Below the pieces are notes generated by a model that saw only the letters and a program-made list of their open reading frames with translations, was not told the origin of the DNA and did not search any database. From Flavihumibacter rivuli (GTDB lineage: Bacteria; Bacteroidota; Bacteroidia; Chitinophagales; Chitinophagaceae), in the NCBI RefSeq assembly GCF_018595685.2, contig NZ_CP092334.1:3438001-3502000 (forward strand): a stretch of 64,000 bases of DNA, given 5' to 3'. Positions 709-63,664 of this stretch are shown in pieces. Both the position numbers and the translations under genes were made by a program. Numbering within the stretch: the first letter of the stretch is position 1; each line of letters begins with the position of its first letter.

Positions 709-1058
709 TTTCACCTCAGCAGGTTCTCCCGCAGGGGACCCTGATGAATAGTAGGGTGAAAATTCATCGTGGACTCTTGAAGCGTACCAATATGGGGTGA
801 AAAGAAAGTCGTCTTTGTGTTCCTTCGTGGCTTCGAGTCTTTGTGGCCAGAATTCCGATGATTCTTTCACCTCAGCAGGGTCTCCCGCAGGGGACCCTGA
901 TGAATAGTAGGGTGAAAATTCATCGTGGACTCTTGAAGCGTACCAATTTGGGGTGAAAAGAAAGTCGTCTTTGTGTTCCTTCGTGGCTTCGAGTCTTTGT
1001 GGCCAGAATTCCGATGATTCTTTCACCTCAGCAGGGTCTCCCGCAGGGGACCCTGATG
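709..1058. repeat. 156-bp tandem repeat carrying the 30-bp hairpin (2.2 copies)
   Basis: The block repeats with a period of exactly 156 bases: the string ACCTCAGCAGG begins at 713, 869 and 1025. Each copy starts with a hairpin of 30 bases (717-746, 873-902, 1029-1058) with arms CAGCAGGGTC and GACCCTGATG and loop CGCA, and the outer flanks TTTCACC and GGGTGAAA are also inverted. Between the hairpins sits a second, unrelated repeat, the right half of a palindrome seen complete at 39892-39965 (copies at 811-848 and 967-1004). The block lies between the ends of two converging genes. Because 156 is a multiple of three, it leaves a long open frame on the minus strand, but that frame is just the repeat and has no sign of being a gene. 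Confidence 0.9.
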
Positions 1059-2041: not shown

Positions 2042-3394
2042 ATGAATGTTTTGGACTGGCTGGTAGCAAATGAGTGGATAGCAGTGGACCGCCTGACCCT
2101 GGTGATGTGGGGCCTGGTCGGTTTTGTGGCCATCAATATTGCGGCCTTCTCCTGGCGGTACCTCCAGGGGGATTCCCATCGTAAAACCTTCTTTTTCAAG
2201 TTGATAATGATGGTTTTGGCCCTCTTTGTGCTGGTCATGGCGGATCACTTCCTCCTTTTCCTTTCAGCCTGGGCACTGGCCAATTTCTTATTGTCCCGGC
2301 TCATGATCCATAACCCAGGCTGGCCGGCAGCCAGGGCATCCGGTAACCTGGCCCTCAGGAGCCTGGGCATTGGAACGGCCTTCCTGGCCATCGCTTTCCT
2401 GGTCTTTTATAACCTCACCGGCGAGTATACCCTCCATGGCATCGTGGAAAATGAGCAGGGTCAACCTGCTGCTTCCATTGGCCTTGCCTTTGTCCTGATG
2501 GCAGCCATGAGTCAGTCGGCCATCTGGCCCTTCCACCGCTGGTTGCTCAGCTCCCTCAACTCACCCACCCCGGTTTCCGCCATCATGCATGCCGGCCTCG
2601 TAAATGGAGGTGGTTTCCTGCTGGCCCGGTTCGCACCCTTATTCCTCCAGCAACCATCCTGGTTGATGATCATTTTTATGCTGGGCCTGCTGACCGCCAT
2701 CCTCGGAACCCTTTGGAAACTGATGCAGTCGGATATCAAGCGGATGCTGGCTGCTTCCACCATGGGACAAATGGGCTTTATGTTCCTGCAGTGCGGCCTG
2801 GGTTTGTTCCCCGCCGCGGTAGCCCACCTTTGCTGGCATGGGCTCTTCAAAGCCTACCTCTTCCTGGCTTCCGGTGATGCGGCTAAGGAAAAACGACTTA
2901 ACCTCGGTTATCCGCCACCGTTAAAACTGCTCCTTCCGGCCCTTTTAAGTGGAGCCCTGGGTGCCTGGTGTTTTGCAATGGTAGGCTATGGCCATTTATC
3001 TTTCAGTGATTCCACCCTGGTGCTGGTGGCCGTGGCATTTATGGCGGGAACCCAGCTTTCCATGCCCTTGTTAATGAACCCTACCATTGGGAAAATCTTA
3101 CTGGTTGCCCTGATAACAGCGGCCCTCGGCGCCCTTTACGGGTTGAGTGTGCTCGCAGTGGAATGGGCCCTGGAACCCCTGGGTATGATGCAGGCTCAGC
3201 CCCTCCAGCCCCTCCATCTAGTCGCCATCATTATCTTCCTCAGTTGCTGGATGGCCTTGTTGTATGGCCAGAGGCTCCTAAACAGGAAAGCCCTTCCCGC
3301 TTTTATTCTCAAGCTCTATGTTCAACAGCTGAATGCGAGCCAGCCCCACCCCCAAACGGTTACGGCCCATCGCAACCAGTATAGTTATAAATAA
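2042..3394 (+). CDS. dabB: DabB: NuoL-like proton-conducting subunit of the DAB inorganic-carbon uptake complex
   Basis: A 450-residue integral membrane protein with about 12 hydrophobic segments. It belongs to the proton-conducting subunit family of complex I and Mrp antiporters (NuoL/MrpA, Proton_antipo_M domain). The family signature is visible as 'PFHRWLLSSLNSPTPVSAIMH' in the central part, followed by the 'DIKRMLAASTMGQMGFM' and 'HLCWHGLFKAYLFLASG' segments with the conserved lysine and histidines of the proton path. It is not part of a complex I operon: it sits 41 bases before dabA, the diagnostic partner. In the DAB complex this subunit is thought to use proton flow to drive CO2 hydration by DabA, trapping bicarbonate in the cell. 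No rubisco or carboxysome gene is in view, so the bicarbonate may feed carboxylases of central metabolism. Confidence 0.88.
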   Translation: MNVLDWLVANEWIAVDRLTLVMWGLVGFVAINIAAFSWRYLQGDSHRKTFFFKLIMMVLALFVLVMADHFLLFLSAWALANFLLSRLMIHNPGWPAARASGNLALRSLGIGTAFLAIAFLVFYNLTGEYTLHGIVENEQGQPAASIGLAFVLMAAMSQSAIWPFHRWLLSSLNSPTPVSAIMHAGLVNGGGFLLARFAPLFLQQPSWLMIIFMLGLLTAILGTLWKLMQSDIKRMLAASTMGQMGFMFLQCGLGLFPAAVAHLCWHGLFKAYLFLASGDAAKEKRLNLGYPPPLKLLLPALLSGALGAWCFAMVGYGHLSFSDSTLVLVAVAFMAGTQLSMPLLMNPTIGKILLVALITAALGALYGLSVLAVEWALEPLGMMQAQPLQPLHLVAIIIFLSCWMALLYGQRLLNRKALPAFILKLYVQQLNASQPHPQTVTAHRNQYSYK

Positions 3395-3435
3395 ATCATC
3401 ATTACTCACGTAACAGTATAACCGAAAATTAGCAT

Positions 3436-39815: not shown

Positions 39816-39884
39816 AAATTTTATCCTGCTGTTCATCAGGGTCCCCTGCGGGAGACCCTGATGGGGACAGAAAATTTTATCCTG
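39816..39884. repeat. Single 30-bp hairpin element flanked by 13-bp direct repeats
   Basis: The hairpin at 39834-39863 has perfect 10-bp arms CATCAGGGTC and GACCCTGATG and a middle CCCTGCGGGA, identical to the copies at 62491, 62834 and 63177. The 13-base string AAATTTTATCCTG occurs on each side, at 39816-39828 and 39872-39884. The direct repeats may be a target-site duplication of a mobile element or part of the repeat's own flanks. Confidence 0.85.
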
Positions 39885-39891
39885 TTATTGG

Positions 39892-39965
39892 GCCACGAAG
39901 ACGCGAAGGCACTAAGTGGCACTAAGGCGCCTTTGTGTTCCTTCGAGACTTCGAGTCTTCGTGGC
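39892..39965. repeat. 74-bp interspersed palindrome (GCCACGAAGAC type)
   Basis: The left arm GCCACGAAGACGCGAAG (39892-39908) and the right arm CTTCGAGTCTTCGTGGC (39949-39965) are inverted with one mismatch, around 40 bases containing twice-repeated GGCACTAAG. Partial copies (right half) lie in the tandem block at 811-848 and 967-1004. Similar 'cacgaag/cttcgtg' palindromes are widespread in bacterial genomes as small non-coding repeats. Confidence 0.8.
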
Positions 39966-62180: not shown

Positions 62181-62310
62181 TAGGATAGCAGCCGGTATTT
62201 TTTACAAGGCTCCCGCCAGGGAACTTCTAAGGAGCAGTTGGGATCTTTTTTGCAATGAGCCTTCCTCAACAACATAACCGGAACACCCAGCCTTGAAAAA
62301 TTTTTAATCC

Positions 62311-63664
62311 CAGCGGGCGCGGCCGAAAGGGACCCCGATGTATAAAAGGCGAAATATTTATGCATCTAACTGGTAATCTCATCTTCCAACTACCCGTTGG
62401 TCATAAGACACAACGGGGGCGAAGGGGGTGAATCTTTTCACCCCATAGTGGTATTCTTCAAGAGACCCGATGAATATCTATCCTACTGTTCATCAGGGTC
62501 CCCTGCGGGAGACCCTGATGGGGAGAGAGGGTATTAGCGTCGTTCATTGTAGCGATGCAACTATATTCTGCGCCGCTGTTGTGTGTTATCACCAACAGCT
62601 CCTATACGTATACAGTCATCAATGTTAGCTGATAATGTGAAATATCTAACCTCATCAGGGTCTCCCGCAGGGGACCCTGATGTATAAAAGGCGAAATATT
62701 TATGCATCTAACTGGTAATCTCATCTTCCAACTACCCGTTGGTCATAAGACACAACGGGGGCGAAGGGGGGTGAATCTTTTCACCCCATAGTGGTATTCT
62801 TCAAGAGACCCGATGAATATCTATCCTACTGTTCATCAGGGTCCCCTGCGGGAGACCCTGATGGGGAGAGAGGGTATTAGCGTCGTTCATTGTAGCGATG
62901 CAACTATATTCTGCGCCGCTGTTGTGTGTTATCACCAACAGCTCCTATACGTATACAGTCATCAATGTTAGCTGATAATGTGAAATATCTAACCTCATCA
63001 GGGTCTCCCGCAGGGGACCCCGATGTATAAAAGGCGAAATATTTATGCATCTAACTGGTAATCTCATCTTCCAACTACCCGTTGGTCATAAGACACAACG
63101 GGGGCGAAGGGGGGTGAATCTTTTCACCCCATAGTGGTATTCTTCAAGAGACCCGATGAATATCTATCCTACTGTTCATCAGGGTCCCCTGCGGGAGACC
63201 CTGATGGGGAGAGAGGGTATTAGCGTCGTTCATTGTAGCGATGCAACTATATTCTGCGCCGCTGTTGTGTGTTATCACCAACAGCTCCTATACATGTATA
63301 CAGTCATCAATGTTAGCTGATAATGTGAAATATCTAACCTCATCAGGGTCTCCCGCAGGGGACCCTGATGTATAAAAGGCGAAATATTTATGCATCTAAC
63401 TGGTAATCTCATCTTCCAACTACCCGTTGGTCATAAGACACAACGGGGGCGAAGGGGGTGAATCTTTTCACCCCATAGTGGTATTCTTCAAGAGACCCGA
63501 TGAATTTTCAACCTACTATTCATCAGGGTCCCCTGCGGGAGACCCTGCTGAGGTGAAAAATATCTATCCTACTGTTCATCAGGGTCCCCTTCGGGAGACC
63601 CTGCTGAGGTGAAACGGTGTACCTATATATTTTACCCCATCGGGGTCTGCAGGGGACCCTGATG
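62311..63664. repeat. Tandem array of about 343-bp units, each with multiple hairpins
   Basis: The unit repeats with periods of 343, 343 and 344 bases (hairpin starts 62491, 62834, 63177, 63521). Each unit has one hairpin in orientation A (arms CATCAGGGTC and GACCCTGATG, middle CCCTGCGGGA) and one in the exact reverse complement, orientation B (62653, 62996, 63341; middle TCCCGCAGGG). It also has three further inverted repeats: CCCGTTG/CAACGGG (62393-62417 in unit one), GGGGTGAA/TTCACCCC (62425-62444) and GCTGTTG/CAACAGC (62575-62599). A degenerate B copy opens the array (62311-62340), and shorter A-like and B-like copies end it (63577-63606, 63638-63664). Units are nearly identical; the differences seen include G-run length and a two-base insertion. 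No protein-like frame runs through it. It lies upstream of the helicase gene and downstream of a LytTR gene. Confidence 0.92.

Follow-up and report, generated by a model that had tools for sequence, protein, structure and literature searches.

The repeat block in the window, a 64,000-nucleotide stretch of Flavihumibacter rivuli DNA analysed here at full length, is probably an ordered tandem cluster of REPINs composed of two hairpin families and mobilized in the manner of RAYT-associated elements. Judged by their sequences, the two families, which we call REP-I and REP-II, are short strand-specific hairpins and non-autonomous elements, probably spread by a domesticated transposase. The array itself is secondary to REPINs dispersed in the genome and very probably serves no function of its own. 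It belongs to a type of bacterial repeat that is already known, of which it represents a new version.

The initial annotation had described about three and a half near-identical units with little divergence and no coding frame, all of which was borne out. Tandem Repeats Finder (TRF) delimited the array at window positions 62329-63547, with a period of 343, 3.6 copies and 98% matches. Compared pairwise, the three full units shared 341-342 identical bases, with 0-1 mismatches and 2-4 gap positions, and the partial fourth unit showed 145 identities and 5 mismatches to each full unit (63371-63520 compared). Three ORFs of at least 60 aa overlapped 62311-63664, the longest being 79 aa and the shortest 61 aa. 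On either side of the array lies a minus-strand gene; from a reading of their translations, one encodes a helicase-like protein and the other a LytTR-type regulator. The span originally assigned, 62311-63664, encloses the array and, at its start, a decayed left hairpin at about 62314-62337, but the hairpins at 63580 and about 63641 do not belong to the array (Table 1). Near-identical units are prone to collapse or expansion during assembly, and an artefact would be a conceivable source of the repeat. However, the genome is a single contig of 4,297,234 bases with a completeness of 99, the units have private differences, and clusters with other spacings occur elsewhere, which makes an artefact scarcely credible. 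We conclude that the array is real and that its copy number alone is open to assembly error.

Table 1. Repeat features of the analysed stretch, in window coordinates
Feature	Position	Strand	Basis
Tandem unit 1, 343 bp	62340..62682	+	TRF, unit comparison
Tandem unit 2, 343 bp	62683..63025	+	TRF, unit comparison
Tandem unit 3, 345 bp	63026..63370	+	TRF, unit comparison
Partial unit 4	63371..63547 (TRF end)	+	TRF, unit comparison
Long REPIN, decayed left REP-I hairpin 62314-62337	62303..62528	+	Sequence; outer ends set ~11 nt beyond hairpins
Long REPIN: REP-I '<', REP-II IIa, REP-I '>'	62645..62871	+	Hairpin spacing; ends by similarity-stop rule
Long REPIN	62988..63214	+	Hairpin spacing, REP-II mapping
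Long REPIN	63333..63558	+	Hairpin spacing, REP-II mapping
REP-I core '>'	62494..62517	+	Hairpin search
REP-I core '<'	62656..62679	-	Hairpin search
REP-I core '>'	62837..62860	+	Hairpin search
REP-I core '<'	62999..63022	-	Hairpin search
REP-I core '>'	63180..63203	+	Hairpin search
REP-I core '<'	63344..63367	-	Hairpin search
REP-I core '>'	63524..63547	+	Hairpin search
Single REP-I hairpin, outside array	63580..63603	+	Hairpin search
Decayed REP-I hairpin	63641..63664	.	Sequence
REP-II IIa	62393..62417	-	Hairpin mapping
REP-II IIb	62575..62599	+	Hairpin mapping
REP-II IIa	62735..62759	-	Hairpin mapping
REP-II IIb	62918..62942	+	Hairpin mapping
REP-II IIa	63078..63102	-	Hairpin mapping
REP-II IIb	63261..63285	+	Hairpin mapping
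REP-II IIa	63423..63447	-	Hairpin mapping
Second array: 156-bp period, 2.2 copies, three REP-I '<' hairpins (720, 876, 1032)	709..1058	-	TRF, hairpin search
Single REP-I hairpin '>'	39837..39860	+	Hairpin search

Each 343-bp unit contains four hairpins, all bulged and strand-specific, which belong to two palindrome families. Family and orientation alternate in the order REP-I '<', IIa, REP-I '>', IIb, with successive hairpins about 80-100 bases apart. The REP-I hairpin reads CATC[A/G]GGGTC-CCC-TNC-GGG-A-GACCC[T/C]G followed by a foot, MTGRGGTKAA, and its conservation drops a few bases past this foot. The mapped '>' and '<' cores confirmed the earlier observation of one hairpin in both orientations, and the bulged A (a T on the opposite strand) was kept in 169 of 170 REP-I hairpins. 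Neither GTAG nor CGTC, the foot tags that define two large REP super-families, was present at REP-I, whose foot reads TTMACCYCAKC on the other strand. In REP-II, we distinguished IIa (CCCGTTG-T-GTC-TTAT-GAC-CAACGGG) from IIb (GCTGTTG-T-GTG-TTAT-CAC-CAACAGC), which differ by three pairs changed on both sides. The fetched stretches described below contained 132 REP-II hairpins, with the bulged T in 117 of them. These REP-II hairpins account for two of the further inverted repeats that had been reported per unit; another stem is taken up below. Pieces like CTTTGTGTTCCTTCG(T/A)G and CTTCGAGTCTT recurred beside REP-I hairpins at window positions 39894-39960, 805-845 and 961-1001, and are perhaps another repeat.

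Both families occur as 20-60 nt palindromes in high copy, as expected of REPs. Allowing up to 3 mismatches, we located 261 REP-I places in the genome, against 0 with a reversed-pattern control, and fetched 55 stretches around places among the first 100 listed of these 261. As a query, the 343-bp unit gave 121 matches in its own genome, where the copies outside the array mostly covered unit positions 1-216 or parts thereof, the longer ones being about 78-91% identical. The search in relatives that had been proposed for the unit returned nothing from any of 14 genus relatives, and among 39 genomes (own included) two responded, namely its own and G015, the latter through a single match of 28 bases (E 7.5e-4). 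Similarly, the REP-II array produced 84 own-genome matches and none in the 14 genus relatives. A covariance model of the REP-I hairpin found it in its own genome only among 15 of the genus (up to 150 candidates scored per genome), and the plasmids and phages searched contained no match. The exact REP-I pattern was absent from the genome-contig and viral-contig collections, a count that diverged copies would escape and from which the own genome was perhaps left out.

REPs lie between genes, and 260 of 305 hairpins were found outside ORFs of at least 100 aa, even though such ORFs span 77% of the bases. The other 45 were mostly inside short ORFs; those longer than 172 aa contained 4 of the 305, and a further hairpin lay in an ORF truncated at the edge of its stretch. 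Hairpins in such places might be kept for the cell, as binding sites or for mRNA 3' protection or termination, as has been proposed for other REPs. Indeed, genes were convergent at 22 of 78 hairpin gaps compared with 13 of 101 hairpin-free gaps of at least 60 bp (script-predicted ORFs). This bias is mild, however, and compatible with a mobile origin, and 16 of the 78 hairpin gaps were divergent; we consider a benefit to the cell a distinctly unlikely explanation of the repeats.

The arrangement of the hairpins pointed to inverted doublets as the spreading unit. In the fetched stretches and the window, 309 hairpins (up to 4 mismatches) formed 85 clusters, and among the 221 neighbour pairs within 400 nt the configuration <> was the most frequent (92, versus 58 ><, 41 << and 30 >>), and its spacing peaked near 48 and 184 nt. 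Such inverted doublets of set spacing, foldable as one hairpin, are what characterizes REPINs. We took 33 copies of a short REPIN of about 80 bp and 52 copies of a long one of about 215 bp, the latter carrying a REP-II hairpin (IIa) in its conserved middle and having, array included, a mean identity of 83.4% (range 69-100%). In the 343-bp unit, the spacer between long REPINs carries the IIb hairpin. Copies of both orientations were scattered over intergenic places. We then compared 34 copy pairs that were at least 93% alike and more than 20 kb apart. Similarity ended 4-11 nt beyond the hairpin on the left in 25 and on the right in 23 of the 34 pairs, and continued or stopped inside in the remaining 9-11. 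Since similarity stops just outside the hairpin in most pairs, the REP-I feet usually mark the limits of what spreads. The proposal of a non-autonomous, REPIN-like element was thus supported, but what spreads is the doublet of about 80 or about 215 bp and not the 343-bp unit. Local amplification was supported as well, given that the array units are about 99% alike compared with the 83.4% mean over the long copies. At least ten other clusters repeated a spacing (for example 98 x7, 156 x2, 164 x2, 181 x2 and 138 x3, read from the spacing list); unit identity was computed for this array alone. The left REP-I hairpin also has a variant that recurs, with GGGCGCGGCC replacing GGGTCTCCC and the stem broken; it was seen in 3 of the 52 long copies (L031:9777-10016, L031:10217-10454 and L032:8634-8870) and also at the start of the array (window 62314-62337).

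Similar inverted ends, sharp outer boundaries and the lack of coding capacity would also be expected of a MITE, in which the REP-I ends serve as terminal inverted repeats of about 38 bp for a cut-and-paste (DDE) transposase acting in trans and the inner palindrome is incidental; the lack of a RAYT linked to REP-I speaks for this reading too. Against it, the hairpin itself is under pairing constraint and keeps its bulge, as expected for a single-strand enzyme, and single hairpins and same-direction neighbours are common. Moreover, ten ORFs between or beside hairpins included eight with ordinary Pfam domains, two without any, and no transposase. We therefore regard a MITE as unlikely, and an autonomous element made of the hairpin-neighbouring genes was rejected on the same ORF scan.

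The pairing constraint was apparent in an alignment of 137 of the 143 distinct REP-I sequences (six irregular ones omitted), where pairs were changed on both sides in 50 cells, compared with 10.5 in shuffles (reached in 0 of 500), by exchanges of A-U to G-C and of C-G to U-A. The number of REP-I pairs with such changes, three, was not above shuffles, 100 of 500 of which reached it. Folding was likewise strong. Single hairpins, folded as DNA, had z-scores of -3.2 to -6.7, and a 236-nt stretch with both REP-I hairpins folded at -124.1 kcal/mol (z -11.1). The latter value is the one point in favour of a structured RNA produced as multimers from the array, yet any inverted doublet folds likewise. 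Across the 52 long copies, both-sided change occurred in 10 cells, of which 9 belonged to one REP-I pair, while the right REP-I stem and the REP-II stem had none. The extra stem GATGTATAAA...TTTATGCATC was paired in 89.4% of cells but changed on both sides in 1 cell, so it does not support the rest of the long REPIN as an RNA structure. The folding and covariation checks that had been suggested thus yielded strong folding, but both-sided changes almost wholly within REP stems and not in the rest of the unit. In addition, no Rfam family reached its gathering score in the whole window (weak miRNA matches fell far below), and the copies lie in both orientations at scattered intergenic places and were not found in genus relatives. 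With nothing positive beyond folding, an RNA product is very improbable.

To relate the REPINs to a transposase, we turned to Y1 genes. PF01797 detected none in the own genome, and the view derived from it, that the genome has no RAYT, proved wrong: a four-RAYT genus profile and NF047646 found two genes, both under the NF047646 cut-off of 80 bits (76.9 and 34.0). RAYT-A (C1:785446-786105) is intact and 219 aa long. Its predicted model (mean pLDDT 87.4) was nearest to 4er8, a REP-associated tyrosine transposase bound to a REP hairpin (E 1.3e-6, TM 0.51/0.66, rmsd 5.8); by sequence, RAYT-A matched no solved structure. In the genome-contig collection, 37 stretches matched a pattern for the protein and none was confirmed. 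Upstream of RAYT-A, an 11-base unit, CGACCCGTCTC, is arrayed at G000:C1:785249-785399 (L115:2250-2400); this array is dispersed, with 32 genome matches including itself, and constitutes a third palindrome family. In RAYT-B (C1:2305159-2305674), a first frame of 59 aa, which ends in NHIHLI, is separated by an in-frame TGA from a second frame of 101 aa that contains YIHYNP.

The linkage to a transposase that the initial annotation had asked about held for REP-II but not for REP-I. REP-II hairpins border RAYT-B at distances of 23 and 36 bp, so that a RAYT flanked by its own REP, another mark of REPINs, is present for REP-II, in a gene with an in-frame TGA. REP-II arrays, their units measuring about 254 and 221 bp, extend on both sides of it (G000:C1:2304046-2305142 and 2305688-2305925; L116:1547-2643 and 3189-3426). 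REP-I flanks neither of the RAYT genes found: none occurred in 6 kb around RAYT-A, and the best trace near RAYT-B was a weak match of 14.3 bits (E 0.17) 2 kb away. REP-I is thus apparently an orphan REP family; its enzyme may have come from RAYT-A, from RAYT-B while that gene was still uninterrupted, or from a gene since lost.

The 101-aa piece of RAYT-B matched 63 of 147 genomes of the same family, own included. At 29 loci of RAYT-B relatives, [ND]HxH and Y[IV][HQ]xN motifs were both present in 24, and a profile of 23 relatives matched one solved structure, again 4er8 (E 2.3e-6). A core GTTGGT-N3-10-ACCAAC was found in other genomes 33 times in 20.8 kb beside these genes (15 of 29 loci), compared with 7 times in 48.9 kb farther away (5 of 29 loci); the other 14 relatives had no core beside the gene. 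One locus, L144, carried GTTGTTG-T-GTC-TTTT-GAC-CAACAAC, with a bulged T as in REP-II, and was the only such locus among the 29, most other listed hairpins having no bulge. Among genus RAYT loci, the gene was bracketed by inverted repeats in 9 of 10 examined, with sequences unlike those described here (L052-L055, L104, L105, L107, L108 and L112).

Taken as a REPIN cluster, the array could have arisen as follows. A Y1 (HUH) RAYT would recognize the bulged hairpin in single-stranded DNA and cut near its foot, and two hairpins with outward feet would then move as one REPIN. A piece with a REP-II hairpin may have entered the middle of an 80-bp REP-I REPIN, giving a 215-bp REPIN that would afterwards have spread with its REP-I ends. 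Finally, one long REPIN, together with a spacer bearing the inverted REP-II hairpin, may have been duplicated in place by recombination or slippage, presumably recently, as the units are still about 99% alike. Movement by a Y1 transposase is something we infer, because the search for empty sites found none: in 12 relatives, the 1.5 kb around the helicase did not include the regulator gene, and joined REPIN flanks gave 333 matches that were uninformative because the flanks contain further hairpins.

These features place the array among described systems. In Pseudomonas fluorescens SBW25, ordered tandem clusters of nearly identical REPINs with their flanks (16 in that genome), as well as mixed GI-GIII tandem clusters, are known (PMC3116915), and excised REPINs have been reported from this strain. 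Inverted REP doublets between genes, tandem clusters and mixed-group clusters are shared with our case, whereas the sequences differ, and here the doublet encloses a hairpin of a second family and no RAYT is linked to REP-I. The E. coli BIMEs, mosaics of y and z REPs, likewise combine related hairpin types, a mid-stem bulge and alternating orientation, but have a GTAG foot and a two-base mismatch, in contrast to the one-base bulge without GTAG found here (PMC8266576). The E. coli TnpAREP requires a bulged, tagged REP, with both bulge and foot mattering, and the IS608 TnpA holds an unpaired T of the stem (PMC8266576). By analogy, the one-base bulge kept in both families would fit recognition by a TnpAREP/IS608-type enzyme; a search of the open-licence literature found no paper on an extrahelical base with IS608. 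The IS608 and ISDra2 ends are also small hairpins with an unpaired or mismatched stem base read by a Y1 transposase (PMC8266576), but they end an element with its own transposase gene, and none lies inside these REPINs. Subclass 2.6 TnpAREP genes of Bacteroidetes have atypical hairpins beside the gene and copies in the genome (PMC6006769). With their mostly NH[LIV]H, WQ and YIHxNP type motifs and their host group, the RAYT-B relatives would fit this subclass, an assignment that rests on the motifs (PMC6006769), although RAYT-B is interrupted and REP-I is not tied to it. CGTC REPs, which in Neisseria are interleaved with other repeat families, apparently have no dedicated transposase either, but the REP-I foot lacks CGTC (PMC3733652). 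The earlier statement that no named element has this unit therefore holds for the sequence but not for the kind, REPIN clusters being already known. As far as searches of the open-licence literature go, which returned nothing on REPs in Chitinophaga and nothing relevant on composite or nested REPINs, three things are new: the sequences of both families, the placement of a REP-II hairpin within a REP-I doublet, and a REP family that is apparently an orphan and accompanies an interrupted RAYT.

In this one genome, a REP family with hundreds of copies, which the searches of 14 genus relatives did not find there, is joined to a second family; the latter's own transposase gene is interrupted by an in-frame stop, and one intact RAYT is also present. 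It is possible, though we would not bet on it, that the long REPIN answers to two enzymes, with the REP-I ends defining the moving unit, the REP-II middle acting as the recognition element of a second RAYT, and REP-I being an orphan family moved by a foreign RAYT; if so, one element would be addressable by two transposases. For the RAYT-B family, the recurrent hairpin GTTGGT...ACCAAC makes recognition by a little-studied group testable. Together, the two families bear on the origin and spread of REP families and on how these persist once their transposases are gone.
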